In this document: positions 5,184 through 57,093 of the stretch, one piece after another
Layout of the letters: every line of letters starts with the position of its first letter
Position numbering within the stretch: position 1 is the first letter of the stretch
Assembly: GCA_003024785.1 (NCBI GenBank)
Contig: PUQB01000041.1
Span: 515,348-579,347 of the forward strand
From: Selaginella tamariscina
Taxonomy: Eukaryota; Streptophyta; Lycopodiopsida; Selaginellales; Selaginellaceae
DNA length: 64,000 nucleotides
Reading direction: 5' to 3'
Position numbers and translations under genes: made by a program
The notes under the pieces: generated by a model
The model's input: the letters and a program-made list of their open reading frames with translations, nothing else
Databases searched by the model: none
What the model was told of the DNA's origin: nothing

Positions 5184-6131
5184 GCATGGAACTACCATTA
5201 TTGGTTTTCGATTAAAGCATGTGGGTGTAATAGTAGCCGCAGATTCTGGATTTACACATACACATCCTGTGACCAAAGAAGAAGTGCTAGAATTAGACAC
5301 CAAAGTTCCGAGTAAAATATTCATGATTAAAGAAGGGTGGTTTGTGGCCGGGTCAGGAGAATGGCAAAACTTTACAGCATTTGTGAACATGTGCAAGGAA
5401 AAAGCCATAGCAGTCGAATCCGTTGCAGATATGTCAAGACAAATGGTTATACTCCTCCGAGATGTTGTTAGGATTGCTAAGAAGAATAGACGAGTTAACA
5501 ACACTGTAAGCATCGAGTCGAATGATGTGGTTTTTTTACGGTCTTCAAAAAGGTATTTATTTATATATATATATAAACAACATTATATAAACTAAACTAC
5601 ATTATATAAGCATTTTTACAAATGATTATATATAATATATTATATTACTTGAAACTTTAATATTAAATTTAGACAAAGCGTTCTTGCGGTGGATTTCAAT
5701 TGAGAATGGAGTAAAGGGAGTTCAGGAAGAGGTCTGTTACGGTTTTGGATCAGGTGGTTGGCACGCAGGTCCGTATCTTCGCAACAGAATTGTTGAAGCG
5801 CGTCCCAATAACACGCAAGAGGCATTCAATCTTGGTGTACAAGCTATGCAATATGGCATTACACATGATCCAGATCATTCTGGTGGCCTTATATGCGTAC
5901 ATGTACTTGGTGCGAATGCGGCAGACATGGAAGTTTTAAAGGTAAATTTAAAATATTATAATAGTATTTAATTCATTATACCATTGTTTTATTATTTATT
6001 TTATTTATATAATGCCATAACTTAGGGTACTTAACATTGTATGACTGAAACATGCTTCGTTTTTGTTTTTGCACAAGAAGCATGACGTTCAAGGAGTTGT
6101 ACTCGTGAACAACCTCGACTTACATGTTTAA
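5184..6131 (+). CDS. Divergent proteasome subunit beta type-5-like, partial
   Basis: Beta-5 is the chymotrypsin-like N-terminal-threonine protease of the 20S proteasome core. Three exons are read. Exon 1 is 5184-5505 (acceptor TTTTAG, donor GTAAGC), the second about 5673-5941, and the last 6078-6131, ending in TAA. Exon 1 opens with HGTTIIGF, matching the GTTTLAF maturation site, so the Thr after Gly would be the nucleophile. VGVIVAADSGFT gives Asp17, and a lysine in the TKVPSK segment is in the place of Lys33. The second exon has YGFGSGGW and the SGGLICVHVLG core strand. Exon 1 ends in phase 0 but the second exon needs a one-base carry-over, and the GTMIAGWD-like strand between them is missing. 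A short exon has therefore been lost or overlooked. The prosequence is also absent. Its identity as a beta-5 relative is firm. Whether it is functional is doubtful. Confidence 0.72.
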
Positions 6132-10112: not shown

Positions 10113-10765
10113 ATTACAACCGAATCTCCCAAGGTTTAGTACAAATAACATTCAAGGTTTGAAAATTAAGGCTATGCCATACCGATTTGTCGACTTTGAC
10201 CACACCTTTAGCAATTGCTCGGTGTGCAACATGCTTCATTGCATTAGGGAACCGTAAGATTGAATACTTTTGCTCATGCTGTTTGTTGTATGTTGCAGCA
10301 AATGATTTTAGTGTCACCAATGAAAGTGACTCCTTTGGCTTCTGGAGAAGAATGATTCCCAAGAGTTTATAGTCCTCAATGTGAAGATAATCAAACCTAT
10401 CTTCCTAGTTGTCAGGCAGCTGTTTTAAACAATATGATCATTAAATTAAAAGTGTGAATTTGAAACTTTACCATGTATGCACGTTGTAACTAAAGTGGGC
10501 ATGATACGTGAAAATGGGAATATAAAATAAATTACTAATTAATACTTAAGTTTTAATTATTAATTAATCATTTAATTAATATGTAATTAAGCCTTAAATA
10601 TTAATTAATTAATTAATTAATCCTTCAATAACCTTACTTAGTAAGGAATATTCCTAAAATATCTTAGAATATTCATATTATTCTAAAAATAATTTACAAT
10701 AATGAAGAAATACTATCAAACATAATTATAAATGAAATCATTTTCTTATCAACATGTTAATTTTT

Positions 10766-12944
10766 TTATAAATACTTTCTTTCTATCATACAAAGAAATC
10801 TTTTCATTTTGTCTAAATCATCACTCTCCGGATTAATCAAATCATTTTGGTCAATATCTTGATGTTGTTGCCACCACTTAACACTCTCACGAATGCAATT
10901 GGGAGTTGCCATCCTTGTTAATACATAAGATGTGATAAGAGAAGGTCTGCATAAAGGCTCATCTAAAAACTGACGTTCCTTAAGAATAATATTATAAAGC
11001 GCCCAGTTGCTATCCTTCATTTTATAAAATTCAATATCACGAGAAAGAAAAGCTTCAGGAAATGTATGATACGGTGGATACTGTTCACAAAAATTTTCGA
11101 GATTCTTCTTTCTGAGGCACGTATCCAAGTAGTTCATTAGCTCATCCATGATATCGGTATCAGAATATGGATCGAAAGTGATTGGATGAATACAAGCAAT
11201 GTTTTGGTTGAGCATAGCCTTTTGAGGAAAGTCGTCTACTACTAACATCTGTGCGTTCTTCATTATCCTTAAGCGACTAATCTCCCCATGAGTCCCAATT
11301 ATTCTTTCATTCTTGAAGAAGTATGGCTTGCTTTCCTTTCTTATATTGTGAAATTCGAGAGGTTTATGACATATTTGCTGGTCAAAAATCCAATCTTTAC
11401 GAATCACCTCTTCTGCAACACTACAATGTTTCTTAAGTAAATTCAACAGCGGTGTTAAGTTATGAATATGCATGCATGACCAAATCCCCACAAGCGCACC
11501 CATCTCCTTAAGCTTTTAAAAGAGACGATCCAACCCTGGACGAAAAATAATATCATATCGAAATTTACCATGACAAGGAATGAAATCTCCTTGTTTGATT
11601 TCTTTTTTTCTATCCTGGGGCCTTTGTCGATGAAGCAGAACACCATTGACATCCAACAACACAATATGGCCATGAGTAACATGGGATAACATTGCCTCTT
11701 GAATACTTTGCAAATCACTTGTTTGCTCCCTTTCACATTTATCCGTTGACACTATCTCATTGCCTATCCCTTCATCATTTAATTGTACATCATCCTTACA
11801 CGATTCAAATATTGCATACACTGAAGAAATTGATTTCGGAACTGAAGCTAATAGAAATTGTTCTGGTGTTGTGATCCAGACTTTGTCAGCGCCCTTCCTT
11901 CTTTCATAGTATGGACACAAAACAGCATTATGTGGAATGGTATAAGAATTGTCGTCCTTCATCTTCTCCATGAGCTCAGCTACACGTTCCTGGTTGAGTG
12001 GCCTGTAATTGAAGTTTGGGTTGACGCTGCAATATTTAACCCTACAAGGATAAATCTTATCATCCAACATCATTTCCTTGTGACTTATTGCAGCATGAGA
12101 TGCCATAGGTGCAACTGACAAAACGATTGATGATTTTCTTTTGCGATCCGAATCAACATGTGTGATCCCCGACTGCAGCTCTTCTAGTGTTCTCGGTACA
12201 CTCTTCTAGCTCCCAAGCTCCCTAAGCAAATTGAACGTGATCTGTAGAGAACCTGAGACCGAGCCACCCTCTCAATCTCCATTATGATGTCGCTGTGTTC
12301 TTCTTCAATGTGAAGAGGGAAGATTGCTTCACTTGCTGATTTTCTGTATTGTGAAGCAATATCTCCTGACAATACACCTACTCGATGAGTCTGAAGATTT
12401 TCGAAGTAGACATCCAGATGGATCCCCTCTATAGATGGGCTTTCGTTGAGTTGAAGAAGAACTCCAAGGTCAACATCATTAGTGAACACGTGAACGTCAT
12501 TATCCACAAGTCGACAAAACCACCCAAATTAATGTTGTAGCTGACGACCTCTGGATCCGAGAACGTGACATTGGATGGAACAAGGCATATGTGTCGAGAA
12601 TCGTCCAATCTGGGTTCGCAGCCTACTTTCGGGTGCTTGACTAGCGAATCTACTTTCCATTGTTTTGCTTGTCCATGAGATGTGACAGAGGTTAATTTGA
12701 CAACAGCCATGGTTGCTCCAATGCGCTTCCATTTATCTTAAAATATGGCCAAGTTGATTCCAGAATCCCCCTGCCCATCTCTTCTCCTGCTCTTGTCTTT
12801 AATGTCACCTCAATTCCACATCTGAATACAAAAATGATTAGTTCAAGTATCCGAGTATAACAGATTTTATTTTAATTCTTACCCAGAATTTGACGACGAC
12901 TCCATACTAATGACTCGATCTCCTTGTTTGATCAAATCGTCCTT
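10766..12944 (-). pseudogene. FCP1/NLI-type HAD phosphatase gene with in-frame TAA
   Basis: The FCP1/SCP family are HAD phosphatases that typically act on phospho-serine in proteins. The 11516-12121 part carries motif I as LLDVNGVLL (plant members often have DxNG) and RPGLDRLF. It stops at TAA (11516-11518), then the same frame continues KLKEMGALVGIWSCM, FDQQICHK and motif III-like MLVVDDFPQKAMLNQN down to 10766. One TAA thus splits an otherwise continuous domain of about 450 residues. Upstream, on the same strand, an exon at 12883-12944 with clean splice borders and an exon starting at 12821 (GIEVTLKTRAGEEMGRGI) lead into 12184-12710. That stretch has two frame changes (near 12715 and 12500), and I do not recognise it. 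It may be the N-terminal half of the same protein or a separate gene. The locus lies between a CACTA-like end and a palindrome array, so capture by an element is possible. Confidence 0.7.
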
Positions 12945-13046
12945 CTGCAAAATAATACACTATGAATACAAATCATATAAAAACGCACACACACTTGTAT
13001 AAACCCGAATATACAAAAATAATACACAGAGAGAAGTAACGTAATT

Positions 13047-13133
13047 AACTGTCCGAAGCTCACATTTGTGCTAGTGCAAAAGAAAGATAACATTTCGTTT
13101 TAGAACCACCACAAATGTGAGCTCTGGACAGTT
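13047..13133. repeat. Short hairpin: 24-bp inverted repeat
   Basis: Arms 13047-13070 and 13110-13133 are inverted copies matching at 22 of 24 positions, with a 39-bp loop. The arms begin AACTGTCC. The hairpin sits between the 5' end of the phosphatase gene and the first palindrome array. It could be a tiny foldback element or a transcribed hairpin. Confidence 0.75.
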
Positions 13134-13244
13134 TTACATAGATTCCTAGCTTTTACTCGAAATATTATAAAAGATGATAAAAGTAAATAAAATGAGATAT
13201 GCAACTTATATATACTAATACACATATATTCACATGGAAGGTGC

Positions 13245-14747
13245 GGCGGGATTAATCTCGCCACCCCTTCAATGCCTCCTGAAAGAGTGGGCGGGATTAA
13301 TTCGCCACCTTTCTGGAGGCCTTGAACGAGAGTGCGGAATTAATCTTGCCACCCTTCTCGGTCTCAGAGAGAACTGGGCAGGATTTATTTCTCACACCCC
13401 TTCAGTGACTCCAGAAAGGGGGCGGGATTAATCTCGCCCACCAAGTGATGGTTAAATGAATTTCCCCACCCTTCCCAATTCTCTCCATTGGTATGTTGTA
13501 AACCTTCTACGTCTCAGACAGAAACGTTTAGGATTGGTCCGATTCACCAATGGAGAAAAAAGAGAAGGGTGGCGGGATTCATTCCTCCAACATGCATTGA
13601 AGACTCGGCGGGATTAATCCCGCCGCCCAGGGCCTTTACTCGGTCCCTATGCGGCGGGATTAATCCCGCCGGACGCCAATTCCCTGCGCGGAATCGGCGG
13701 GATTAATCCCGCCGCCTAGGCACTTCAGGCAGGCCAATGGCGGCGGGATAAATCCTGCCCGATTCCGCGCAGGGCATGTGTACGCGGCGATTAATCCCGC
13801 CTCTAGGCCCTTCACTCGGGCCTTAGTCGGCGGGATTAATCCCGCCGAACGCCAATGCCCTGTGCGAAATCTTGCGGGATTAATCCCGCCGCCTAGGCCC
13901 TTCAGGCAGGCCAATGGCGGCGGGATAAATCCCGCCCGATTCCGCGCAGGGCATGCGTACACGGCGGGATTAATCCCGCCCACCATGTAAGGGATGGTGA
14001 AATTAATCCCACCACCCTTCTCAGTTCCCTCCATTGGTGTTTTGTAAACCTTCTCCGTCTTAGACAGAGTTTGTCGGGATTGATTCAACATACCAATGGA
14101 GGAAAAAAGGGGGCGGGATTAATCCCGCCACCGGGCAATGAAGGTTCGGAGAGATTAATCCCACGCGCCCTTTCGTAAATCATGCGCTCACACATATATA
14201 TTGGCTGCGGCATTTTGAACAGGGATGGGTGGGGGCGGCCGCCGCTTATATCCTGCGGAAGTGCCTGAGCGGCGGATTAATCTCGCCGCCCTCCGCGAAG
14301 GGCATGAGTGGGGCGGGATTAATCCCGCTGTTCATGTCCTGCGTGAATTCCCTGGGCGGCGGGATTAATCCCGCTGCCTTACGCGCAGGACATGTCATGC
14401 AGGCTCTTCGTTAGCCTTCCGTGCAGGATCTTTCATGCAGGCTCTTCGGTTAGCCTCATGAGCGGCGGGATTAATCCCGCCGCCCATCCCCTGTAAATGC
14501 CCTGCGCGGAATCCGCAGGATTAATCCCGCCCATTAGGGCCTTCACACAGGCCATTGCCGGCGAGATAAATCCCGCCGCATTCCGCGCAGGGCATGGGTG
14601 AGCGGCGGGATTAATCCCGCCGCCGAGGCCCCTCACGCAGGCCATGGGCGGCGGGATTAATCCCGCCGCCATGGCCCCAACCATATAGCGGCGGGATTAA
14701 TCCCACTGCCGAGGCCATAAACCTATAGCGGCGGGATTAATCCCGCC
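13245..14747. repeat. Array 1 of the 18-bp palindrome GGCGGGATTAATCCCGCC
   Basis: About 29 perfect or degenerate copies of a sequence identical to its own reverse complement are strung at 43-47 bp steps. The first is at 13245-13262 and the last at 14730-14747. Perfect copies include 13607, 13653, 13696, 13829, 13963, 14603 and 14650. Spacers are also related: ATTCCGCGCAGGGCAT and its reverse complement alternate between units, and a higher-order period of about 177 bp (four units) is visible (13742 versus 13919). The edges are more degenerate than the middle. Most changes are C-to-T or G-to-A, several at the two CpGs of each unit. The block is GC-rich inside an AT-rich region. Open frames across it are a by-product, because two of the three frames through the palindrome lack stops. 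Confidence 0.95.
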
Positions 14748-14760
14748 GCTCGAGGGGCTT

Positions 14761-14836
14761 AGCATGTGTGCGAGAGATAAAATTAATAAATAAAAAAATT
14801 ATACATATAAAACACACACATATATATATGTGTGTG

Positions 14837-14869
<33 letters not shown>

Positions 14870-15585
14870 GTATGTATATAGGAGTGTACGTGTGTGCAAG
14901 AGATAGATAAATAAATAAAATTATACAGTACTGGTACACATAATATATGTGTGTACATAGGTATATATATGTGTGTATATGTATATCGTGTGTATGCGTG
15001 TGAGCGAAACAAATAAAATCATACAGATAAACAAACACACACACACATATATATACACAGGAGTGTGTTGTGTGTGCGAAAGATAAAACTAATAAATAAA
15101 TAAAATTATACAGATAAACATATATATGTGTGTATATAGATATAACCCATAATGATATAAGCATATATATAAACTAGTGTTGTATACTATTTGTTAATAT
15201 GCATTGATTATATATATATATATATATAAAGCAATGTGCGTGTGTGTGGGAGAGATAGATCAATAAAAAAAATTATATAGATACTGGTACACATAATATA
15301 TGTATATATATGTATATAGGTATATATATATGTGTATATGTATATTGTGTGTATGCGTGTGTGAGCGAAACAAATAAAATCATACAGATAAACAAACACA
15401 CACACACACACATATACATACACAGGAGTGTGCGTGTGTGTGCGAGAGATAAAACTAATAAATAAATAAAATTATACAGATAAACACACACATATATATA
15501 TGTGTGTATATAGATAATAACCCATATGAATATATAAGCATATATATAAACTAGTGTTGTATACTATTTGTTAATATGCATTGAT

Positions 15586-15637
<52 letters not shown>

Positions 15638-15903
15638 GCAGTGTGCGTGTGTGTGGGAGAGATAGATCAATAAAAAAAAATTTATAGATACTGGTACACA
15701 TAATATATGTATGTATATATGTATATAGGTATATATATATGTGTATATATATATCGTGTGTATGCGTGTGTGAGCGAAACAAATAAAATCATACAGATAA
15801 ACAAACACACACCCACACACACATATACATACACAGGAGTGTGCGTGTGTGTGCGAGAGATAAAACTAATAAATAAATTATACGCACACTCCTATACATA
15901 TAT

Positions 15904-15936
<33 letters not shown>

Positions 15937-15945
15937 GATCTCACC
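14761..15945. repeat. Microsatellite-rich long tandem repeat
   Basis: TA, GT and mixed TATG tracts are embedded in a longer repeat. A segment beginning AGGAGTGTGCGTGTGTG recurs near 15058, 15424 and 15836, so the unit is roughly 370-410 bp, with a related older copy near 14880. Phrases such as AACTAGTGTTGTATACTATT and GAGCGAAACAAATAAAATCA recur in each unit. The many open frames here are low-complexity artefacts. Confidence 0.85.
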
Positions 15946-15984
15946 TGTGTGCACAGCCGCCGCCGCCGATTTCACAGCCGCCTC

Positions 15985-16910
15985 TTGAAACCCTAAGAAT
16001 ATACCTAAACCCTAAAGGAATTAAATATATATATTAACCCTAATAGAATATTCCTTCTGAGAATATACTTAAACCCTAAAAAGAATAAAATATAGATTCG
16101 CCCTAAACGAATATTCTTTCATTATATTATTAGCGCGTGCGTGGTGTATCACATACACCCCAAAAATATAAATCATGCAGGGATTTAACATGTGTGTGTC
16201 CATGAGAGTGTTAAAGTTTCATGTGTATCAATACATACATACACATTGCATATATTAATACACATAATATATACATACACACGTGTATACACACAGACAT
16301 ACATACATATTACATGGGTTTAGGGTTTAGGGTTTAGGGTTTTGGATTTAGGATGGATCATGCATGGTGTGTATGTATGAGAGAAGAGAGAGTGTTGAAA
16401 AATTATTTTTGTACACATTGCATATATTAGTACACATATACTTACACATATTATACACAGATATACATACATAGTATATGAGAGAAGAGAGACAGTACAT
16501 ATTATGGATCATGCATGGTGTGTATTATACACACACATACATACATATTAGTACATAATATTAGAGAGACCGAGTACATATTATAGATCATGCATGGTGT
16601 GTATGTTTGAGAGAAGAGACAGTACATATTAACATGGATCATGCATGGTGTGTATGTATGAGAGAAGACAGAAAGTACACATATATACATACAGAGTACA
16701 CATATATACATACACACGTGTATACACACAGACATACATACATATTACATGAGTAAATTCATTGTGTTACATATTAGGGTTTAGGGTTTAGGATGGATCA
16801 TGCATGGTGTGAAGAGAGAGTGTTGAAAAATTATTTTTGTACACACATGTTACACAGGGTTTAGGGTTTGCTCCCAACAAGCTTAATATAAATATTACAC
16901 ATGTAAATTC
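15985..16910. repeat. Interstitial plant telomere motifs with CATGCATGGTGTGTATG repeats
   Basis: Runs of TTTAGGG lie at about 16318-16345, 16776-16795 and 16855-16872, and AAACCCTAA-type copies in the opposite sense at about 15985-16080. Between them a degenerate unit containing GGATCATGCATGGTGTGTATG and GAGAGAAGAGAG recurs at least five times (near 16353, 16505, 16586, 16635, 16795). This is the plant-type telomere heptamer, but too short and scattered to be a chromosome end. Confidence 0.75.
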
Positions 16911-17124
16911 AATGTGTTACATACACACAGATTGAGTACATATATCATACATGCGTTGAACATGATGTTTTCAATAAAGAAGCAACATATTTCTTCAGTT
17001 TGGTTTAGGGTTGTGCATGTGTGTGCATATGTGTTTTTGTAAGTTCTTGTAATGCGTGTGTAAATTTATGATTGTGTTTATATATGTGTGCAAAACAAAC
17101 ATCGAATAATTAAGAAAATAATAT

Positions 17125-17850
17125 TAATAAACACACTATGAACATATTTTAAATTATACATAATAATATATGATTTTATCTAATATATAGCCATATATAG
17201 TTTTAATAATATATATTAATTTAATATTGATAAAAAGGTTTAACATTGAAATATTCTTGAAATAATAAGAAATTAATTGAGAAAATCCCATTAATATATA
17301 CAAATGTAAATTAAGTACTCAAATAATTAACTAAATTAATTATCATAATCATGTTTAATATTGGAATATTCTTGGAATAATAAGAAAATAATAAAGAATA
17401 TCCCATTAATATAAAGAAGATTAATTACTCAAGTAATTAAGGAAATGATATTAATATATATATTAAACTATATATGACTAATATTAGATAAAATGATGTA
17501 TTATTATGTATATTTAAAATATGTTCATAGTGTGTATTAATTTAATATTGATAATAAGGTTTAACACATGAATATTCTTGAAATAATAACAAATTAATTG
17601 AGAAAATCCCATTAATATATACAAATGTAGAATAATTACTGCAATAATTAAGAACAAGACTAATTTAATTATGATAATCAGGTTTAATATTAGAATATTC
17701 TTCAAATATTAATAAAATAATAAAGAATATCCCATTGATACTAGGAAATGAAAACTAAATACTCGAGTAATTAAGAAAATAATAATAATAAACAGACTAT
17801 GAATATATTTTAAATGATACATAATAATATCAATTTATTTATTGTATAAG
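17125..17850. repeat. AT-rich foldback with internal tandem copies
   Basis: About 70 bp at 17132-17207 (containing GAACATATTTTAAATTATAC) recurs as an inverted copy at 17466-17535. A third, directly oriented copy lies near 17797-17835. Between and after the arms, a unit with GAATATTCTTGAAATAATAA and ATCCCATTAATAT recurs about four times. No gene is seen here. Confidence 0.7.
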
Positions 17851-18222
17851 TATATATATATATATATAATATAAATATACTTGAATACTAAGAATGTAGA
17901 ATATAGTCTAAAATTTCGTAATATTAAACAGCTTGAATCACTTGAATAACATTAAATGCAATTTTAAAATACTCATTGGAACTGGAGAGTATATATGTCA
18001 GAGTGTCGGATATTTGTGTCAACTCATCTTAAATTTTATTTTCTGTTCTTTTTAAAAAATTTGAATTTCTGACATATGTATTGTCGGTCTGACATGTAAA
18101 TTTGAAAATGCATTTAATTTCCCACTCAAATTCAGATCTGGTTCTTTCTCCGGCAAGGGTTTCTTCATTTCTGTATTTTTCACTCTTTAGATCTTCTTTT
18201 TTCTTCATAGTGATCATCTCAG

Positions 18223-18286
18223 GAGCGAGATTAAATTGGGTGCTATTCTTTATAGGAAAGCACGGCGCCTTCAGTGCTGTTTACAA
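18223..18286 (+). other. Protein-kinase-like P-loop exon fragment
   Basis: After an acceptor at CATCTCAG and before a donor GTAAGT, 64 bp read IGKHGAFSAVYK. This resembles the glycine-rich ATP loop (GxGAFSxVYK) of Ser/Thr kinases, with one extra residue. No other kinase exon follows, because palindrome array 2 starts 170 bp downstream. It may be a captured or orphaned exon, and chance is not excluded for so short a piece. Confidence 0.3.
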
Positions 18287-18456
18287 GTAAGTATTATAAA
18301 CAAATTTAAAAATACTTATAAAGATTCACTCTCTTACATTCTCTCTTAAAATTACAATTTAGGGGTTTAGGAATGCATTAGGATTATAATATATTCCGTT
18401 AGGGATTTATCCCGTTTAAATATCCTTTTAACTTAATATTCTAGGTTAACCGGGGC

Positions 18457-19094
18457 GGCGGGATTAATCCGGCCATTTCTTTTTCGCCTCTTCGAAGAGG
18501 TGGCGGGATTAATCCCGCCACCATCTCTCGGGCAATGCTTCTCCGCCACTGAAAAAGAGTGGCGGGATTAATCCCGCCGATAACCTTCTCAACTGATGAA
18601 GAGTTACCAGAATTTATTAGAAAGAGTTGTCGGCGGGATTAATCCCGCCAACCATTTTAGGAGGCAGGGAAGGGGTGGCGGGATTAATCTCGCCACCACA
18701 TCCCTGTTTTAAGGATTTGGGGACAGGATTTATCCCGAGATCTCTTTGAAATCATAGTTTTGGAGAGAGTTATGTGCGGGTTTAATCCCGCCACCCATTC
18801 CCCGTCGTAAGAATTGTGGGCGGGATTAATCCCGCCGACTCCTCCGAAGGGTTGAATCGCGGCGGGATTAATCCCGCCGACCTCCTCGTCGGAAGAGTCG
18901 GCGGGATTAATCCCGCCGGACTCCCCCGAGGAGGAAGAGGCGGCGGGATTAATCCCGCCGGCTCTTCCTTGTCGGAGGGAGTCCAAGGCGGGATTAATCC
19001 CGCCGACTCTCTCCGAAGGGGTTGAGTCGGCGGCGGGATTAATCCCGCCGACCGTTCCTCGTCGGAGGGATTCGTGGGCGGGATTAATCCCGCC
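18457..19094. repeat. Array 2 of the 18-bp palindrome GGCGGGATTAATCCCGCC
   Basis: Thirteen copies start at 18457, 18502, 18561, 18632, 18677, about 18722 (degenerate), 18775, 18819, 18861, 18900, 18942, 18987, 19032 and 19077 (fourteen with the degenerate one). Nine of them from 18502 onward are perfect. Spacing is mostly 39-45 bp. From 18819 on, every step is a multiple of three (42, 39, 42, 45, 45, 45), so both strands stay open and both encode GGINPA repeats. The spacers differ from array 1 (TCCTCGTCGGA-like). The array ends about 150 bp before the first exon of the DUF7869-like gene, where it could act as a promoter or a subterminal protein-binding region. Confidence 0.95.
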
Positions 19095-19242
19095 CATCAG
19101 TTGTATTAATCAAACATGAGATATTATCTCTAAACATAATTATGTATTATTGCATATGCATATTATTAAGTAACCGTAATTCAGATTTCTTAGAAATATT
19201 GCATAAACAGATATCATAAATAATACAATTATTTATGTGCAG

Positions 19243-22200
19243 GACAATATGTTTAATACTGGAGATAAAGTATGTCTTCTTCGGAACAACGAGATAGTTG
19301 GCACTGGAACTGTGGAAGTTCGAGATAATAATGCATCATGTCACAATATTGCCCAAGGATCTTGTGTGTACGTATGGGTGAACACCATTTACAAGCATGT
19401 TGAGGTTCTGGGAATGGAATTTGAGGAGGGTTCTCCTGTATTGTGGAATTTGGATGAAGTCAAGGCTGACACAGAATATGCAGAGTCACAAACAAATAGT
19501 AGCACGAGTTTACCAGATGATGGCTTGCCTGCTGTGATGGATGAGGTGATTCTCTTTCTTCGTGAGATTGAAGTCGGAAGAGGCATCATCACAGCTATAA
19601 ATCCAATGGAAGCAGTGTCAGAAGAGAAACTAGGGTCCGACTTCGTGGGTGTAGTTGTGACAGAGGTTTCACCTAATGGCACATTGTATCCTGGATCCCT
19701 CGTGAGGTGGCGAACATCTGAATTAAGACGGCAAGATGGTTCAACATATTCTGGGTTGGATTTCAATAATAACAACCCGGAAGAACAACTCATATTTGAA
19801 GAGGTTCCTTGCATTGGTCCTATTGTAAGAAAAAGGCGATTCATGGGTTGTAGATCTTCCCCTGCAAGTTTCAGCAAGAGGGTAAAGATGGATCCTACAT
19901 CTTCCGAAAGTGTTACGAGCATTTCCACGATTGACTGTTGCAAGAAGAAGTGTTGTCAGATGGCAGACCGGAATGAAATTACCCAATGTAGACATGTCTT
20001 TCGTATGCTCACCCAAAAGCAAAGGCATGAGTTTGTATATGCTGCACTAACTGGGTGTATTGATGGAATGGCCTCGGACACAGGTTATCAGAGTACATCC
20101 ATGGTATTTAATAAGGTGGCCATCTGCTTCAAAGCTTGGTACAGTATATACGGGATCCCAAAGACCACGTTCTACCGTCGGAGGGATGAGTGGCTAGATG
20201 GAGCGCGAACCTCAGTTCATGGGAACACTCGCTTGGTCAAAACCCGCTCTCACATCATGGCAGCCATAGAGATACTCAAGGCTTTTGTGGAAGCAAATGC
20301 AGACAGGATGCCTCACAAATGCCGAACCACAAATGCAGGGGTCAGGGAAAATCTCAAGGTTTTGCCTTCAATCTACACTCAATTGAAGCTGTGTGAACAT
20401 GTGAACAAGTGCCTCAGTTTGATGGGGCTCCAAGCAATCTGCACTGGTACCTTCAACAACATATGGAATACTCATTTTAAGGATGTGGAGATTGCAAAAC
20501 ACTCTAGCTTTTCTAAGTGTGACACTTGTACATCATTGAAGGCTGCAGAGGCTTGTGCAAAAACCTTGGTGGAGATCACTACCATTCAAAGAAGATGGAG
20601 GCCCACATGATTGCACAACAAACTTGCCGGTCTCAGTACTATGCACACCGCATGCTTTCTGTGTCACGCCCATCAGAGTACCTGTGCTTGATCCATGACA
20701 AGATGGATCATTCAAAGACCAGCATTCCAAAGCTCTTTGCAACACCAAAGTGCCTTGGAAATGTCATGAAACTTCCGATTTCATTGACAGGTGTGCTAAC
20801 ACATGGACACGGTTGTGAGTCATATGGACACTTTTCACTTCCACATTGGTCTAGCGACTCCAATTTCACTATTGGGTCGTTAGCCATGTGTTTCAGAAAC
20901 CTTGAAGCCCACTCACAGACAAGTCCTATCAGTGATCTCAAAGTGAAGAAACAACACCTTCAACCTTTACATAATGCTCTCATGAACACATCTGCACTTG
21001 AGGCTACTTGGGAATATGAGAGGCATTGTCAACAGCCTGCACAAAAAAGATGGCCCTGTTGAGAGTTCTGGTTCAGTGGAGGGATCTAGCTCAAATAGTG
21101 TACATGTGTCCTCAACATCAAATAAGCTTCCTCGTCATTTGCTTTTACAGATGGATAATTGTGCAGGCGAGAACAAAAATAGGTAAATCATTTTACTTAA
21201 GGGTTTCTCAAGCTCATACTTACTTTTATTTTCTAGATATGTGCTAGCATACTTGTCAATGCTTGTTGCCAAAGGTGTGTTTGAAACAATCACGCTCAGT
21301 TTCCTTATGGTTGGTCACACTCATGAAGATATTGATGCGTTCTTCAGCAAGGTCTCCAACTCTACAAAAAGGACAAGTGCACTTACCTTACCGCATATGA
21401 TGAATCTTTTTGAAAATTGCATCTCCAAAAAAAGTTGTGCTTTGCTTGTGACTGAGGTGCCAGACTTCAAAAAATTTCTCAAGGAGTATATAAAAGAAGG
21501 GAGTGATTCTTTAGTTGGTCACCTTGTGCCGCTACAATTCTTTTTCTCCATACGAGATGGTATACCTATTATGCAGTACAAGTTACGGCCATCAGAGCAG
21601 GAGTGGTTACCGAAAGAGGGCTTAATGCTCTTCAAAAGTGGAGAGGATGGAAAGCCACTTCTCCCAGAAGGACAACCAGACCCTATTCCATTGAGTGCCC
21701 AGGCTCAAGGAACAAGAGGTTATTATTGATGGCATCAAAAAATATGTGGCATGGGTTCAAAAATCGATGCCAAAGAATTCTGATAAGGCAACTGGTTACT
21801 CAGAACTATATAAGCATGTGGTCGACTATTGGGAGACTGTTGTTCGAGAGTTGGAAGGGCCTACTGTCACAAGTACAGAATTGCAACACCCTTTCTGGCC
21901 TAAAACAAGGTGGCGAGAGGAGATTGAAATGACATCACTGAGCACAGACGACATAGAAGCCAGTAGTGATGTGGAAGTGCAAACCCCACACTTTGTTGGA
22001 CAAAGGAACCAAAAACCTAAAGCATACTTTGATTGTTGCAGGATCTTCAAAAACTAATGATGGTTCTCATTACTCCAGATGCGTCATATAATCAGCCTAT
22101 TTGGATGGGTCAAATTATCGACACACCTGAAGTAATCACAAAAAATAGTATTGTTAAGGTTGCATGGTTCAAACCACAAAAAAGGCGACACGAGAAGGAG

Positions 22201-22365
22201 AGCGAAAGATATAATGGATGCCTAGAGAAAACATGGTCTCCCAATCAAAAAGACCCAGCATGTTTTATAAATGTTAAATCCATTCGATATGGGTGGATGT
22301 CAAGAAGCGTTGATAAAGTCACGATTAACAAAACTGCAAGGGAATGTATGTTTTCTGAAGCTTAA
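19243..22365 (+). pseudogene. DUF7869-like, transposase-like gene
   Basis: The first exon is read from an acceptor GTGCAG at about 19242, or from ATG 19249. The N-terminal 200 residues (NTGDKVCLLRNNEIVGTG onward) resemble the accessory module seen in plant transposase-like proteins. Next come a basic linker, a C-x4-C-type cluster (CCKKKCCQ) and RRRDEWLDGAR. The core has GVLTHGHGCESYGHF, then QMDNCAGENKNR (21148-21182), a 54-bp GT-AG intron (21183-21236) and LMVGHTHEDIDAFFSK (21304-21351). The D...GHTHEDID pattern is the hallmark I associate with the family labelled DUF7869, and would fit an RNase H-like fold. The C-terminal part (about 22060-22350) contains WMGQIIDTP and VKVAWF, like a reader or BAH-like module. 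Frame changes near 20570, 21030 and 21710 break it, though the total length of about 1000 residues is preserved. It could be a domesticated or a mobile gene. The function is unproven. Confidence 0.72.
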
Positions 22366-23059
22366 AGCAATTACAAAATTATAAAATATCATATATTTAA
22401 TATTCATAATTATTATAAACTCTTTAATAATAGTACCAAATTGTATACTTAACTATATAAATTTAAAAAATGATATGGAAGATTGACTATATTATTATAG
22501 GATTTTATATATATATTATTACTACTACAAATTTTTAATTAATAATGTTATATTTAAATATTAATATTTTAATAACAACATCAATATTTATATAATGTAC
22601 CTCTTATGCTCTTCCTTAATTGTTATATTAGGCAATATATTATATAATTTAATACTTCTACTTTTATAATGTTATTAATTTTTGTTCAATGAATGCTATA
22701 ATTTATTAAAGGGTAGAATACAAAATAGAATATTCTAAAGAATATTCTCTTTTCAAACATATATTCTAAAGAATATTCCTTTAATATTAGAAAATGCTAA
22801 TTAAATAGCTAAAATTGCTAATTATTAGGAAATGGACTATAGCCATGCCCATTTTATACTTGCATATGTAGTCAGGTGGTTGTTCCTATTCCACAGTTTG
22901 AGTGTCACTGTTAGTGCATAGACCTTTTTGTTTTCCCATGGACTATTTCCTTCTCGCTTAGAGCTAAATTTGGATTCATTGCTCTCTAGCCCAATGTCCT
23001 TCTACAAATAGAATTATAACCATACGTAAACAATACAGGAAATCAAATACATATACATT
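22366..23059. other. AT-rich downstream region
   Basis: AT-rich sequence follows the transposase-like gene, with AGAATATTCT inverted motifs near 22722-22775. I did not find a terminal inverted repeat matching the region upstream of array 1 or array 2, so the right end of any element carrying the gene is undefined. Confidence 0.4.
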
Positions 23060-24579: not shown

Positions 24580-25235
24580 TCCACAAAGATTGTGCCTCAA
24601 TATGAATTTGAGGGCTCAGTTATCACATAGAGCTATAGTGCTTGTGTGGAGGAGTTATAGCTGTAGGTTGGCAAAACCCAGCTGGTGCAGCTGCACGAAG
24701 ACTGTGCCTCAATAGGAGATTGAGGGCTCAGCTATCACACAGAGCTATAGTGCTTGTGTGGAGGAGTTACAACTGAAGGTTAGCAAAACCCAGCTGGTGG
24801 AGCTACACGAAGACTGTGCCTCAATACAAGATGGAGGGCTTAGCTATCGCACAAAGCTACAGTGCTTGTGTGGAGGAGTTACAAATGTAGGTTGGCAAAA
24901 CCCAGCTGGTGCAGCTGCACGAAGACTGTGCCTCAATACGAGATTGAGGGCTCAGTTATCACACAGAGCTACAATGCTTGTGTGGAGGAGTTACAGCTGG
25001 AGGTTGGCAAAACCCAGCTGGTGGAGCTGCACGAAGATTGTACCTCAATACAAGATGGAGGGCTCAGTTATCACACAAAGCTACAGTGCTTGTGTGGAGG
25101 TGTAGGTTGGCAAAACCCAGCTGGTGGAGCTGCACGAAGACTGTGCCTCAATACGAGATTGAGGGCTCAGTTGTCACACATAGCTAAATTGCTTGTGTGA
25201 AGGAGTTATAGCTAGAGGTTGGCAAAACTCAGCTG
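24580..25235 (+). repeat. 112-bp tandem repeat inside gypsy A protease region
   Basis: The phrase ACTGTGCCTCAATACGAGAT recurs at about 112-bp steps (near 24589, 24701, 24813, 24926, 25038, 25140), giving six units. In one frame a unit encodes EGSAITQSYSACVEELQLE and KTQLVELHED, that is, the segment that follows the protease active site. Because 112 is not a multiple of three, the frame rotates from unit to unit. The same repeat is present at 54640-55450. Confidence 0.9.
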
Positions 25236-25540
25236 GTGGAGACTTTCTTTCTTGCGGAGCTAGTGTGTGTGGATCCTAAGATCTAGTGGAGCACCAAGCA
25301 CATGAAGCTTGAGTATAATGAAGTGAAAGACATTTGGTTTGGAACAAAGCTTGAGTCTCCAAACAAGTTCTTTTACTGTCACCTTGAGCAAAGCTGTTGT
25401 GCGAGGAGTTTGTTGACGTCTTCCCTCCTGAGTTACCACCACATGTAAGAGGTGTGGAGCATGAGATTGTATTGGAACAAGGTACGAAAGCCATTTACTG
25501 TAAGCCATTCCTATTGAGCCATGCTAAGGAGTAAGAGGTT

Positions 25541-29489: not shown

Positions 29490-31139
29490 AAGTAAATTTA
29501 CTTTAACATTAATTTATTAGATTTAATTTTAATTCATATGGTAATTACAACATGATATATTGATATATGTATAAATTTGTGTATGCATGTTTAACATAAA
29601 AGCACTTTCATTAAAAAAGAAAAAGCAATATTATACAGCACACATACACATGTCTACACTTATATATAATGGATCATGATATTATTATTTTCAAACGATT
29701 TAAAGATTATATAAGAGAAGCATATTTTTGTTTATTCTAAATAAATATGTTAATTAAACTTATTATAATCTATATCTCACAAAAATTGGATATACATATT
29801 GTCCAAAAACTTTTAAAGCACCAGGTCTTATTATTAAACAATATTTTGAAGGTAAGTATTATGTATTGTTTGGGTGAGTATATTATAGATCAAATTATTA
29901 TTTGTTTAAGAAGAACTCATCCGTTTTTGACAACTTTAAAATGAATTGTTTAGTTGCTAGAATTTTATTTTTTATGGAAATTTACATGAAATTAATGTGT
30001 GATTGAGATAGTTTGAATCATATATTAATATAAATCTATTAATTATTTATTCATTATAATAAAGAACCGAATTTGAACAGAAAATTCCTAAATAACCTTT
30101 AAATTTTATATTAATTAAATTGCAAATATATATAGATATTTAATCCCATGAATTAAATAAACTGAAATTAATTATTTATTCATTTTTTTAAAACCTTATC
30201 TGAAATGTAAGTAGATAAAGCATTTAAATGAAAAATTAAATAAATTAACCCATACAGTAAACAAATTAAAATAAATACCCCTTTTAAATATAAATAGCAT
30301 ATACTATTTAAATAGTTTTTAAAAAGGTTACTTGAAGAATTTTCCCATACTTAATTGGAATTGGAATTTGGAAAGGTAATATAAGAAATACTTGTATGGA
30401 CATGGGATAAGAGAGATTTGGAATCAAAAAATTTATCAAACAGCAAATAAGCAGCCAAATACCATTCTCACATTGTGAAAAAAAATTAAATTAACAGGTT
30501 AATTCAAATTAAACAGGTATATTTTATATAGCGTCTTCCCTCTTATAATCCTCCATTTTATTTTGGACTTGCCCTTTATTGTATCATATCATCTACATGT
30601 ACAATTCTCTTTGGTATTATCCGATATCAATATTTTATAAATATATATCAGATTTATTAATTACAATTGTATTAGACCACCAAATATCTTACCTCCAAAT
30701 TACACCTCAAAAGCTGTTTCATACTTCTCTGCCTCTTCCGATCCACATGTTTCATACTTCCTAAGCATCTGCAGGATGGTCATGTCAAATACAATCCCTC
30801 CATCCCCTTCCCCTCTCTCTCTCTCTCACACACACACTACAAAACCTCATCAACTACTGCAAATAGAACTTGCTTAGGATGTTCATCCAGTTTCAGAATC
30901 TTCTTCAGAGTCTTCTTCAGAATCTGATGCGGAGCACTTTGTTGACATAAAGTTGTAGTTGGTTTCTGCGGAGTCCTCAACCTGGAAAGCACCACAGAGG
31001 CCATTCTTGTTCTTGTAAACAAATGGCGCCATGGATTTCCAGACATTTTTAGACCTCTGGCCCGGTTCAAACACTGGCCGTGAATAAAGGGCGCTAAGGG
31101 CACGCAACAAATCCCTGCCTTTGAAGATCATTAATATTC
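29490..31139 (-). repeat. Segment R1: third copy of the small-gene duplication
   Basis: From about 29490 this segment matches 41190-43100 in the same orientation and 57150-58950 inverted. Shared landmarks include GATATATTGATATATGTATA (29560; 41198), AGCATATACTATTTAAATAG and the exons of the unknown small gene. The match ends at about 31139, within the first exon, where a different sequence leads to the gamma-tubulin-complex pseudogene. Confidence 0.8.
30693..31131 (-). pseudogene. Unknown small gene, copy R1 (5'-truncated)
   Basis: The exon 1 remnant at 30846-31131 begins MIFKGRDLL and contains VYKNKNGLCGAF, VEDSAETNY and the acidic run SDSEEDSEEDSE. It then changes frame before DEHPKQVLFAVVDE and ends at a GAG|GTTTTG donor. 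Exon 2 is at 30693-30768, and an exon 3 remnant lies near 30530-30575. The first roughly 50 residues found in the other copies (MGRRRRGAKRAPQEE...) are absent. I do not recognise the family. Confidence 0.6.
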
Positions 31140-31790
31140 TCGTCTCTCACATCAAGATAATATCTTTTCTATTCAGGTGGTTCATGTTAAGCCAAACTCG
31201 ACCGCAAAACATTTTGCAATCCAGCAGAGGTCAGAATGCTATAAGAAATATCCAACGACGTAATACGTTTTGTTCTGTTCTGCAGAAACGCAAGGGCTGT
31301 GTGTGAAGAAGTTGCCTTTCCAGACAAGACACAAGAGGTCAGAAGAATTATATACACACACGTAGTTATATATTTTGATAGCAATTTATAGACGTACCAA
31401 TCGGCGTGGTTGTGGAGAAAAGCGCGTGAACGAATACTCACCCAGTATCCTTTCGGAATTATATACATATGCGTGTGTATGTGATTATACACGCACTCGC
31501 GCGCGCGCGTGTGCGCACGCACACACAGGAGTTGCAATGATTGTAGTGTCTTTAACAGATGCTAGATATCGGCTTTTACACCGTCAGGATATGCGTACAC
31601 CGTCAGGCTTTTACAGGAAAATCTTCACCTTACGTGGCCTTGAAACGTTATTAATGGGTCGGGGACTGGGGCGGATAATTTCATCACTGCGCTCTGCTCT
31701 CATGTATGTACCCATATCCTGGATACGCATCACGCACACACACAGACCGATAGATAGACAAATAATTGATCGTATTGTGTAGTTATAGCC
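31140..31790 (+). other. Exon-like pieces upstream of the GCP pseudogene
   Basis: Plus-strand pieces with splice-like borders occur at about 31179-31340 (EEVAFPDKTQEV in one frame), about 31397-31443 (YQSAWLWRKARERILTQ) and about 31529-31703 (DMRTPSGFYRKIFTLRG, ending at CATG|TATGTA). They may be 5' exons of the gamma-tubulin-complex pseudogene that follows, but I cannot match them to that family. Confidence 0.35.
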
Positions 31791-38446: not shown

Positions 38447-40713
38447 GAACATGTTACCAAACAAAAAGAGTTAATTAAATCTATAAATGTGGCGTACTCA
38501 TTCACATGACCATAGATTCATCAATGGTAAGGGTTGTGAAACTCTTAAAATGTAAGCATTTAAAGTTAGGGCGGCACAAAGGGTGTGCCTTGACGAGATT
38601 AACTAGGCTTATGTTGATAAGGCCCCTATTTTCATGTTTACATAAGTGGCCTAGCACCAAATGCCAATCCTGAGATCTTTTTATGACAAAAACTTTTTGC
38701 ATGTGCATTTAAGGTGGAGATTTAACTTTGTGTTAAAAGTTATTAGGGCTTTATGTCCTAGGGTTAGGGCATCATGTTTAATTAGGGCTCATGATGATGT
38801 GGCAATATCCAAAATTGGGGCATTAAAAACAAGTGGAAGAATTTTTTAAAAGCTAAGTTTTAGAGTTTCTTAAAAATACCTAACGACACCCAATTATATT
38901 TCAATAAATAACAATAGTCAACTTCCAAAGTAATGTCTTAATTATGAATATAAATTATGTTAGAAAAATTAACTAGTAACTAACATTAATCATTGTATGC
39001 AAAGCCAACCAAAAATTCACATTGTTTATATTACCCCCTTTTGCATAATGCTAAGCCAAGTATTTAAAAACTATTATTAACTAGTTGAGCCATCATATGT
39101 GTCATAAAGTCACTTGTAAACCTTCTGCTCACTTAAATGTAGAAAATTAATTAATTAATTAATTTATATTAATTAGAATTTAAATAGGAGGTTTCTAGTT
39201 AATATTGTTTATCAGCTGCTTGGTTAAATCAAGGAATAAAACTTTCTTTATTCCGAATATTAAATGGAGTTTACAACCTAGTCATCGAGTGCATTACAAG
39301 TAATTTGAATTCATTTCAAATGCTTAAATCAACACTTTCACATTTCATTTTCACATTTCCACCATATAATATTCTCATTTATGTTTTTGCTTTTATAATA
39401 TTGGCCCAATTTCGTGCTTGAGTTCAAGTTGAGTTGACGAACTCTTAAAATTGAAAAAAATAAGATTAACATGAATAAATCTCAGTTTAACATTTTGAAA
39501 ACCAAACATTGTTTTAAATGATATCAACATGAATAAATTTAAAATTTACATTTAAGACAAAACTTAAAACATAAACTTGTCAAATAAATTTCATTTTAAA
39601 AAAACACAACATATTTACATGATTAAATTTTAAATAAATATTTACAAACTAGACATTATACTCAAATGCTACAAGTCACAAAAGCCACAAATGATGTATT
39701 ATAAACCAGCTTGGTAAGAAGGAGAGCTTCTCTCTTAGGTTCCGCCTCAACATATTCTAACAAAATATAATTAGTGGTAATAGTGATACATACATATATA
39801 TAATATTTATAAAATAATATATAAATACATATATAAATTTATGCTAATATAGAAAATATATGAATATATGTATTTGTATATATTTATCAAAATATATGTT
39901 ACAGGCATATATGACATATATATACAAACATTCAGATATAGACATGTATAATTTGCTATACATATGTATATATAGAGTAAATTATGCATGTCATGTATTA
40001 TACATATCTATAGCTATACATATGCTATCCATTTGTATAGTATGCATGTACAAGCATATATAGACATGTATTTATACATAACATGCATAAGGATAATATA
40101 AACATTAATAACATTCTTAGGAGAGCTTCAAATGTTAAGTTTTAAAATTTAAATAAAAGAAATAATTAATCTTTTCTTTATAATGCAAATGCAATAAAAG
40201 GACAAGTGAACATGTGAGTGTGTACACGTGGGTGCATGCATGTGTGTAGATAAGAAAATCATTATGTAATGCTCACTCACCAAGTTCATGATACAACATA
40301 AACATGCATTAATGATATAATTCATTGAACAAACAAGTCATGGTAATGTCCCTAAATATTCTAGTGGACAACAGAGGCCCATAAGAATGTCCTTAAGAAT
40401 TGAATTACATTGCAAAATTGCAACCTACATATCTAAAACATGTATATTGACTAAACTATAGTAAGATCTTCTATTTTATTCTCCAACACAGCTGTAGAAA
40501 CTCAAAACACATTATATTACTAATTCATTAAAATTAACGAGACATTACGTTCCGAACATAAATTGTAACTAGTATATATGTTATCTAAAATATTTTTTAA
40601 GATTAAGGTTAATATTAATTTAATTTTAGTAATTTTAAGATTAAGATTAATTATTTGTGATATCAATTGAAATAGTGTTGACTTTAACATTAATTAATTA
40701 AGATTTAATTTTA

Positions 40714-41180
40714 AGGGAAAATTACATTTATATTCCTGAAATTTATCATATTTACATATATTCTTAAAAAATTTATATTACATATATATCACTGAAACTT
40801 CAATTTAAAACTTCATAAATTTTAAAATTAAAAATTAAAAAATATTTTTAAAAAATCAATAAAGTTTTATAATTAATTTGTATTTTATTATATTTAGGTC
40901 CAAAATACAACCTATTAAACATATATATCACAATATAATATAATTATTTTATAAAATATTCCATTTACTATGATAATTTTTGACATTTAACAATTAATAA
41001 ACTTTAATTATTTCATTTGTAATATATTATGAATTGAAATACATTTTTAGTTAATATTGTTATTTTAAAAGTCAAAATATTACAACTGAAGTTTTAAAGG
41101 GTATATACATGAATAAAACTTTTATTCAGGATATATATGTAAATATGATAAATTTCAAGGGTATAAATGTAATTTTCCTT
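40714..41180. mobile_element. 467-bp MITE with long inverted repeats
   Basis: The element begins AGGGAAAATTACATTTATA and ends with the near-perfect inverse TATAAATGTAATTTTCCTT, and the terminal inverted repeats run for about 90 bp. It is flanked by AATTTTA on both sides (40707-40713 and 41181-41187). The matching sites in the two sister segments, near 29520 and 58910 (inverted), carry a single GATTTAATTTTAATT and no insertion, so they show the empty site. It has no coding capacity. Confidence 0.92.
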
Positions 41181-42166
41181 AATTTTAATTAGTACCTGAT
41201 ATATTGATATATGTATAAATTTGTGTATGCATGTTTAACATAACTTAAAAATAAAAACAATATTAATTAAAAATATTTATTTTAAGCTGGTTACCAATCT
41301 CGTAAAATTAACACACACATTAATATAGCATATGATTTAAAAATGGTTTAAAGATTTGTAAGAGATTTTTTTTTTTTTTTTTTTTTTGTTCTAAATAAAT
41401 TAAACTTATTATAATTTATATCTCATGTAAAATTAAATACATATTAACTTTTAATGTAACCAACATACTCAATATTAAACAATATCTTTAAGGTAAGTAT
41501 TATGTATGTGTCTAAGTGTGTAAATTAACTATTTTGTTTAAGAAGTAATCAGTTTGTGACAACTTTAAGATAAATTGTTTAATTGTTAGAATTTATTCTT
41601 TTTCTGGAAATTACATGAATTAAAGTGTGAATTGAAATATTTTAAATCATATATTTTTTATAAAAATTTATTAATAAAGAGAACATTGAAATAGTTAAAC
41701 CATGAACTTAAACAGAGAATAACTTTTAAATTTTATATTTTCAACTTGACACTAATTTTTGTTTTGAATTAAAACTTTAGACGAGATAAGTATCCCTTGA
41801 ATTAAATAAATTGAAATAATTAATTACTTTATTATTTTAAAATATTTTTAAAACGTAAATAGATAAAGCATTTAAATAAAAATTAAATGAATTACCCTTT
41901 TGAATATAAATAGCATATACTATTTAAATAGTTTTTAAAAAGGTTACTTGGGACCAAACTTAAATTGTTTATAAGAGAGATTTTGAATGAAAACTTTATC
42001 AAACAACAAATAAATAAGAAGCATCAAATACCCCGTAGACGAGTACCCAGTCTTGAATATTTAATTCTTACATGTGATTCGAATTTTATGCTGAAAAAAA
42101 TCAAATTAACAAAGTTAATTCAAATTTAAAACAGAAGTATACATATTTTTATTAAGGTACACTTAC

Positions 42167-43182
42167 AACGTCTTCCCTCTTATAATCCTCCATCTTATTT
42201 TCGACTTGCCCTTCCAAGTCCTGAACAAAAACTGTTAATGTATCAATTTACATATACAATTCCTTGGTATTATCTATTATGGTTCCAGAATAATAATGGA
42301 CACGTTCAGTAATTAAGTGTGGTAGAATAACCTAGTCTCATGCCTCGTATATATCACAGACTTATGTCTTAGACCACTTACTTATCCGATATCAACACTA
42401 TCTATCTATCTATCTATATCACAGATTTATTAATTACAATTGTATTAGACCACCAGATATCTTACCTCCAAATTACAACTCAAAAGCTGTTCCATATATT
42501 TCTCTGCCTCTTCCAATCCACATGTTTCATACTTCCTAAGCATCTGCAGGATGATCATGTCAAATACAAAATTCGCCTCCCTCCTGCGCCCCCCCTCTCT
42601 CTCTCTCTCACAGACCATGTTATTTGTGTAGTGTGAAACACTAAGAAAATAAATTATATATATAGAGAGAAAGACAAACCTCATCAATTACTGCAAAGAG
42701 AAATTGCTTAGGATGTTCATCCACCCAAACGGAGTCTTCAGAATCTTCTACAGAATCTTCTTCAGAATCCTCTTCAGAATCTGCTGCAATGCACTTTTTA
42801 TAAAATTTCTCGTAGGTGGTTTCTGCGGAGTCCTCAACCTCAAAAGCACCACACAGACCATTCTTGTTCTTGTAAACATAACAACGACATAAACTCCAGA
42901 CATTTATAGACCTCTGGCCGGGTTTCAAAGGCCCGGCGAGCATAAAAGACGTTAAGGGCAGCATATCTGCAATATTTTCCAATACTTGCAGATAGATCGG
43001 GCACGCAACAAATGATAGAATCTCCTGTCTTTGAAGATCATCAATACTCTCGTTCTCTGACACTTACACTCGTTGCAATTCCGCAATGCATACTGTGCAA
43101 TCTTCTCGTTCCTTGCACGCAACGGGATACATTTTCTCTCCTCCTGTGGCGCCCGCTTCGCACCTCGTCGTCTCCTGCCCAT
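42167..43182 (-). pseudogene. Unknown small gene, copy R3
   Basis: Exon 1 (42680-43182) starts MGRRRRGAKRAPQEERK, then NEKIAQYALRNCNEC. After a one-base loss near 43025 it continues EILSFVACPIYLQ, FMLAGPLKPGQRSINVW, VYKNKNGLCGAFEVED, the acidic run DSEEDSEEDSVEDSEDS and DEHPKQFLFAVIDE. Exon 2 is 42466-42543 (KYETCGLEEAEKYMEQLL), exon 3 is 42167-42220, and a short last exon lies near 42085-42110. All splice sites match copy R2. I do not recognise the protein. It is basic at the N terminus and acidic in the middle, with a short helical C-terminal tail. Confidence 0.65.
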
Positions 43183-43290
43183 GAACCTTAACCAGCCCTA
43201 ACATGGGTTTAATTGTACTGCTACGTGAAAAGGTTAATCCTTTTTGCAATATTCATAGGGTAAATCCGAACCGTCCGAGTAGCATATTCT

Positions 43291-43639
43291 ATATTCATGA
43301 GACCTTAATACCTAATTAAAGGTTTTTTTATTAATTAATGCAGGTTTGTTTTGTTGTACCAATGATGTTGCTGTCGTATCGAGAAGACGGACGTTTGTTG
43401 TAGGTCAATTGATACGTTGTTACGTGGTGAGAGTAAGAATCAGTATAATTTAATTTATGAAGTGATTTTGAAGTCTAAACTCACATGAAGGCCAAGTCAT
43501 AACGATAATTTTTAAATTAGTTGTTGAATATTTATTTGGATTGAACATTTATTATTAGTGTTTGTATGTGAGATCGGCTAAATCCTAAATCTGAACCCAT
43601 TTGATAACCACTTAAATCATGAATTTATGTAACTTCATT
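43291..43639. other. Short unassigned spacer
   Basis: This is AT-rich sequence between duplication arm R3 and the copia-2 fragment, with no coding signal. It may contain the degraded 5' part of copia-2, but I cannot show that. Confidence 0.45.
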
Positions 43640-56994: not shown

Positions 56995-57059
56995 TTAATA
57001 GAATATGCTACGGACGGTTCGAATTAACCCTATGAATATTTAGCCTTTCCATGTAGCAG

Positions 57060-57093
57060 TATAATTAAACCCTGTTAGGGCTGGTTAAGGTTC
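57060..57093 (+). promoter_or_regulatory. Telo-box-like and site-II-like promoter motifs
   Basis: AAACCCTGTTAGGGCTGG lies about 25 bp before the ATG of the small gene, followed by GGTTCATGGGC. AAACCCT (telo-box) with GGGCT/TGGGC elements is typical of plant ribosome-biogenesis and translation gene promoters. The same block (AACCCATGTTAGGGCTGG) is kept at about 43188-43210 in the inverted copy. The function is inferred from motif only. Confidence 0.4.

Follow-up and report, generated by a model that had tools for sequence, protein, structure and literature searches.

Arrays of an 18-bp palindrome as internal parts of an abundant DUF7869 transposon family in Selaginella tamariscina

We analysed a stretch of 64,000 nucleotides from Selaginella tamariscina (assembly GCA_003024785.1, contig PUQB01000041.1, positions 515,348 to 579,347; hereafter the window), in which a perfect 18-bp palindrome, GGCGGGATTAATCCCGCC (hereafter P), forms two arrays of 29 and 14 units. 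Our analyses show that both arrays are internal parts of a single abundant DNA transposon family with terminal inverted repeats (TIRs) and two divergent genes, here named gene A and gene B, the latter carrying the domain DUF7869. From conserved sequences resembling splice sites, array 1 appears to be part of gene A's first intron and array 2 of gene B's. By analogy with the VANC proteins of Arabidopsis transposons, we see even chances that these intronic arrays provide sites for a dimeric factor that activates or de-silences its own element.

The arrays stand far above chance expectation, with 35 sites at up to three mismatches in the window, compared with a mean of 0.01 and a largest value of 1 in 100 dinucleotide shuffles. 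Unit counts allowed up to six mismatches; an overlapping site at 18846 (6 mismatches) was dropped and two 6-mismatch sites outside both arrays (2509 and 18399) were excluded. P is exact in 10/29 units of array 1 and in 10/14 of array 2. The complete assembly (300.7 Mb, 1391 contigs) was then screened, as proposed in an earlier sequence-only reading of the same DNA, using the P pattern read backwards as a control. This search returned 27,128 exact copies and 59,903 at up to two mismatches, while the reversed pattern gave 0 in both cases.

The genomic context of these sites was assessed in a non-random sample of 295.7 kb including the window (about 0.1% of the assembly), picked around P clusters or DUF7869 genes and comprising, among others, 20 chunks from contigs 1-3, each of 10 kb and taken at the P clusters listed first. 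All the 417 sampled sites (up to three mismatches) were located either inside segments homologous to the element (354) or in four array stretches directly abutting such segments (63), and none elsewhere. The idea of a free-standing insulator- or centromere-type repeat is not supported, P being an internal part of one transposon family. Nor does the sample fit satellite DNA in free-standing head-to-tail arrays, every sampled array (6-28 units) being in or next to a copy of the element. In the sampled loci the spacing of units was 44-46 bp in 202 of 353 neighbouring pairs and 36-50 bp in 287, in agreement with the step of near 45 bp first noticed in the window.

Two hallmarks of a TIR DNA transposon, namely terminal inverted repeats and a constant short target duplication, were found. 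The element ends in inverted repeats of 27 bp, ATGCA[C/A]GTTGTAACTAAA[G/A]TGGGCATG, with two differences between left and right; at up to three mismatches this pattern occurs 2,237 and 2,132 times on the two strands of the genome, and 0 times in the control. Among the 100 end places listed, 13 facing pairs 13.9-15.0 kb apart were counted by eye, in addition to one ambiguous case. A full-length member measures about 14.8 kb, the window copy being shortened and flanked by ATGT at 10473-10476 and 22866-22869. An identical 4-bp target duplication was recognized in 9 of 17 end pairs (4/7 and 5/10), the other eight having none or a partial one. The four matches among the seven whole pairs are the window copy and C1c (ATGT), C1a (ATAT, with one end base missing) and one C2 copy (TAAT); of the non-matching pairs, C1d has three of four bases alike, another C2 copy three shifted bases, and C3 none. 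Five of the ten facing pairs have identical 4-bp flanks (TAGA, CGTT, CTAT, TGGT and ATTG) and five do not. Copies without the duplication may be recombinants.

The internal layout is constant. In all seven copies with both genes and both arrays, window included, the order is gene A (minus strand), array 1, 3.0-4.2 kb of other DNA, array 2 and gene B (plus strand); the other copies in the chunks are partial. The number of units, on the contrary, varies among the copies examined, from 6 to 28 in array 1 and from 9 to 20 in array 2 (10-20 in four copies). The borders of the predicted gene A intron recur in several places, the donor in seven and the acceptor in eight, window counted, with the donor not found in some copies such as C1a; those of the gene B intron were each found in nine, again including the window. 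A further predicted gene A intron, of 61 bp, contains one P with two mismatches, the same in 7/7 copies keeping that part. In long genic blocks, the copies compared share 93-99% identity with copy C3, which supports the recent spread suggested by the sequence-only reading. About 2,000 copies of 14.8 kb each could add up to roughly a tenth of the genome, an extrapolation that lies towards the upper end because many copies are partial.

The element centre, which includes the predicted 5' exons of both genes, is presumed to act as a divergent promoter region. It holds a telomere-like (GGGTTTA)n run at 16316-16352 and CCCTAAA runs nearby, also present in other copies; in the element copy L087 (contig C918, 76500-86499) the central region is present twice, inverted, around a stretch of N. 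The features of the window copy are collected in Table 1.

Table 1. Features of the transposon copy in the window (positions of the window; introns are predicted).
Feature	Positions	Strand	Remarks
Whole transposon copy	10477..22865	+	12.4 kb; limits set where similarity to other copies ends
Left terminal inverted repeat ATGCACGTTGTAACTAAAGTGGGCATG	10477..10503	+	27 bp
Gene A	10769..12905	-	Broken in the window copy (frame shifts, one stop); C-terminal NIF/FCP1-phosphatase-like domain
Predicted intron 1 of gene A, containing array 1	12945..15944	-	Conserved donor- and acceptor-like sequences
95-nt hairpin in the predicted first intron of gene A	13044..13138	-	Minimum free energy -44.9 kcal/mol, z -8.55
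Array 1	13245..14747	.	29 P units at <=6 mismatches
Element centre	15945..18286	.	AT-rich, simple repeats, telomere-like TTTAGGG runs; predicted 5' exons of genes A and B
Predicted intron 1 of gene B, containing array 2	18287..19242	+	Conserved donor- and acceptor-like sequences
Array 2	18457..19094	.	14 P units at <=6 mismatches
Gene B	19249..22365	+	DUF7869; frame-shifted in the window copy; predicted intron 21183-21236
Right terminal inverted repeat	22844..22865	-	About 5 bases shorter than in other copies

Gene B was assigned to PF25273 (DUF7869) from its window piece with E=2.2e-27, well above the cut-off; the proposal that the arrays sit beside DUF7869-like genes thus holds, array 2 being placed in the predicted first intron of one. 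Long open frames of gene B exist at other places (1,053 codons in many listed rows), and the L087 copy is open as far as the predicted intron. Its relatives comprise the full-length P0001 from a public contig (36% identity over 97% of the query) and a partial one. A PDB sequence search addressing a transposase fold gave 0 matches; gene B is nevertheless a probable transposase, judging from its setting and from the conserved acidic motifs that it shares with P0001 in their alignment. In its N-terminal part a TNP1/EN/SPM trace (E=0.041) did not reach the cut-off. Six of the nine best DUF7869 rows were fetched, four of them having array 2; the remaining two, C633 and C1182, lack both array 2 and the N-terminal part of gene B. 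Sites of CCCTAGGG in direct duplication at one older DUF7869 relative in this genome were judged to be another repeat. A search of viral contigs with the DUF7869 piece yielded 26 pattern matches and no relatives, and DUF7869 by name was absent from the open-access literature searched.

Gene A is further reduced in the window, where about 2.4 kb found in copy C3 is missing. In the open copy L080 it carries an NLI-interacting-factor-like (NIF-type) phosphatase domain (PF03031, E=3.4e-12). The catalytic motif of such phosphatases has two aspartates, and since gene A reads DVNGV at the expected place, its phosphatase is probably inactive. Elsewhere in gene A the domain search gave nothing above the cut-off, a ParB- or methylase-like look of its middle part being left unconfirmed (Pfam 0), and no homologues were found at E<=0.001 among 8000 scored.

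P was not found as a previously published motif in the open-access literature searched, where one unrelated paper came up. In other sequence collections the 18-mer was present in 1 viral-contig stretch and 49 bacterial-genome stretches (48 with one site, one with two), occurrences that are taken as convergence. In the Prevotellaceae metagenome-assembled genome JAIRUB (L013, L022, L026, L027, L033, L037 and L039) it stands at most 100 bases from contig ends, as if inside an assembly-breaking repeat, with no relation to the plant element as far as seen.

Comparison between units reveals a marked difference between P and its spacers. Across the two arrays P identity is 0.87, whereas that of the spacers is 0.51, against 0.48 for shuffled spacers. 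Within arrays, spacer identity rises to 0.60-0.74 against 0.50, and some spacers match each other in direct as well as inverted orientation: of 378 pairs in array 1, 37 match in plus and 33 in minus orientation, and of 78 pairs in array 2, 9 and 8, respectively. In array 2 the first eight units hold the same irregular spacing across several other copies, the remaining units varying in number. In this fixed block 0/21 spacer pairs exceeded the 99.9% shuffle level, while P identity was 0.875. Among 427 units, the inner A/T positions 8, 11 and 12 of P varied 3, 6 and 4 times, respectively, whereas positions 9 and 10 did so 26 and 35 times. Only 12/45 double changes at paired positions were complementary; so few compensatory changes speak against selection on a stem, and it seems that the sequence of P, rather than its pairing, is what counts.

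Considering these results together, we propose that each array would offer a cluster of candidate sites to a DNA-binding factor that is symmetrical (dimeric) and is most likely a product of the element, of either gene A or the helix-turn-helix-like part of gene B. At high density, such a factor would activate both genes or lift silencing from its own family, acting from arrays on either side of the central divergent promoter and from the single further site in another gene A intron. A symmetrical site would work in either orientation, and array length could be altered by unequal exchange. Several lines of evidence argue for this reading: the genome-wide count with its zero control and the fact that each of the 417 sampled sites falls within the element or directly beside it; the constant order in 7/7 copies, the conserved intron borders and the same single P in the 61-bp intron; the maintenance of P between units with near-random spacers across arrays and rarely varying positions 8, 11 and 12; and, finally, the differing length of arrays between copies together with the VANC parallel. 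A symmetrical site for a dimeric factor, as the sequence-only reading had it, is still the best interpretation.

Other observations weigh against this proposal. No DNA-binding domain above the cut-off was found in gene A or gene B. No P-like site (up to five mismatches) was found upstream of two DUF7869 relatives in this genome, both of them older and decayed. The units are related by descent, and the position profile of P is hence not made of independent events. Between copies of the element, P shows hardly more conservation than its spacers or the flanking sequence: in blocks aligning without unit slippage, array 2 has a diversity of 0.043 in P, 0.052 in spacers and 0.042 in flank (13 copies), the corresponding values for array 1 being 0.017, 0.034 and 0.022 (8 copies). 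The earlier statement that the spacers vary far more than the palindrome is thus upheld between units and not clearly so between copies, and the circumstance named beforehand as speaking against it, spacers as conserved as the palindrome in other copies, was partly encountered. This slippage-free comparison supersedes initial figures taken from top BLAST matches, in which slippage of units makes the spacers look too divergent (P 45/1685 and spacers 363/2517 in array 2; P 57/1790 and spacers 221/3458 in array 1; 577/14652 in unique flank). Low constraint between copies would fit a neutral decay of copies that are not active, any constraint being limited to the lineage that is. Since the copies are mostly inactive, a weak signal between them is expected, which weakens the copy-based argument and leaves the unit-to-unit argument standing.

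The CpG content of the arrays deserves separate consideration. Both arrays are GC islands (57% and 56% for arrays 1 and 2, against 36.6% for the window), with CpG observed/expected ratios of 0.98 and 1.14 against 0.55 for the window; for spacers alone the values are 0.60 and 0.77. The sequence-only reading had seen possible protection from decay in the CpGs of each unit. However, CpG transitions between copies affected 15/614 sites in P, while gene A had 52/1361, gene B 19/654 and the remainder of the element 18/546, and these similar rates in P and the genes leave protection unsupported. Changes at non-CpG C/G sites amounted to 8/782 in P and 74/7549 in gene B.

Different alternative scenarios might explain the arrays. 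The strongest rival, which we nonetheless consider unlikely, is that of a functionless intronic minisatellite grown by slippage and unequal exchange and carried along by a successful transposon. The lack of clear extra constraint on P between copies, the variable unit numbers and the relatedness of spacers within arrays in both orientations are all consistent with it; nevertheless, it would not readily account for P being kept amid unrelated spacers and irregular spacing in the fixed block of array 2, nor for the recurrence of one motif in two arrays separated by 3.7 kb and, apart from these, in a small intron. Somewhat less probable still is an intronic enhancer read by a host factor. P contains a CCCGCC half that we take to resemble E2F sites and a TTAATCC presumably like some homeodomain sites, and the symmetrical GC arms with an A/T core, in a predicted first intron beside the presumed promoter, would suit such a role; against it, the 18-mer is confined to the element in the sample, and the A/T core is better kept than the CCCGCC part, unlike a plain E2F site.

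An improbable third scenario involves structure, the palindromes and partly complementary spacers forming intronic hairpins or cruciforms that affect splicing or small-RNA production. On its own, P forms a 7-bp stem closed by a UUAA loop (-12.6 kcal/mol), the predicted fold of array 2 is much more stable than those of 20 shuffled versions (z -31.3), and the adjacent 95-nt hairpin has a 5' arm identical in 8/8 copies, with a changing 3' arm and surroundings. However, any array of perfect palindromes folds in this way, and the would-be loop positions are among the best kept in P, where double changes are so seldom complementary. For the hairpin itself, a structure like a precursor microRNA and a captured miniature inverted-repeat transposable element are both candidates. 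Lastly, internal transposase-binding sites serving transposition rather than expression are very improbable: repeated transposase sites are carried by many transposons and both arrays recur in fuller copies, but the arrays are central (in the window copy, 2.8 kb separate the left end, and 3.8 kb the right end, from the nearest array edge) and no P was seen at the element ends.

Rfam and tRNA scans of the window returned 0 hits. Ty1- and Ty3-like frames are present in the window and, together with its TTTAGGG runs, suggest plant DNA. Outside the element, two mutually related 112-bp tandem arrays were observed near Ty3-like frames (24582-25241, 6.0 copies; 54633-55437, 7.3 copies). Another repeat of about 4.4-4.8 kb is present as inverted copies (38447-43292 and 56998-61351) and a partial third (29506-31151). 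A proteasome-subunit-like frame (5185-5595, plus strand; PF00227, E=0.0003) falls just under the cut-off.

These results account for tens of thousands of P copies as internal parts of a single transposon family, whose ends, target duplication and genes can now be named, and give DUF7869 a mobile-element setting. They also provide a second, testable candidate case of motif arrays for transposon self-recognition and activation; if true, sequence-specific anti-silencing would not be peculiar to VANDALs. Going further, we suggest with due reserve, as a possibility on the doubtful side, that a DUF7869 transposon unrelated to VANDALs independently evolved self-activation or anti-silencing, with its own reader of P (e.g. 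in gene A, at the other end of which lies a probably inactive phosphatase of the RNA polymerase II CTD-phosphatase type) and intronic arrays flanking a divergent promoter, and might thereby have reached about two thousand copies and perhaps a tenth of the genome.

Among known systems, DUF7869 proteins (PF25273) are related through the domain of gene B, a domain without stated function. A 4-bp target duplication occurs in Sola, which has a Sola-type transposase, and in other superfamilies; it fits the element described here in length. CACTA (En/Spm) elements have CACTA ends, a 3-bp duplication and subterminal arrays of TnpA motifs. The family resembles them as a large plant transposon with two proteins and short-motif arrays, along with the sub-threshold TNP1/EN/SPM trace of gene B, but it differs in the central position of its arrays, and its ATGCA ends and 4-bp duplication argue against membership. 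Mutator/VANDAL elements have a duplication of about 9 bp, and the 4 bp seen here, where a duplication is present, likewise speak against placing the family among them.

The closest functional parallel is VANDAL21 of Arabidopsis. There the motif YAGTATTAY is dense in the non-coding parts of VANDAL21, the tandem repeats expand and contract and are situated upstream of VANA21 and within introns of VANC21 and VANB21, and motif density is reported to be important for VANC21 localisation (PMC5735166, PMC10398659). The S. tamariscina family shares with this system dense arrays of a short motif specific to one family, located in introns (here predicted) of the element's own genes, and repeats that expand and contract. 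It differs in having an 18-bp palindrome instead of a 9-base motif arrayed in one orientation, as well as other proteins, clear inverted ends and a 4-bp duplication, and its possible anti-silencing role is put forward by analogy with the VANC system.

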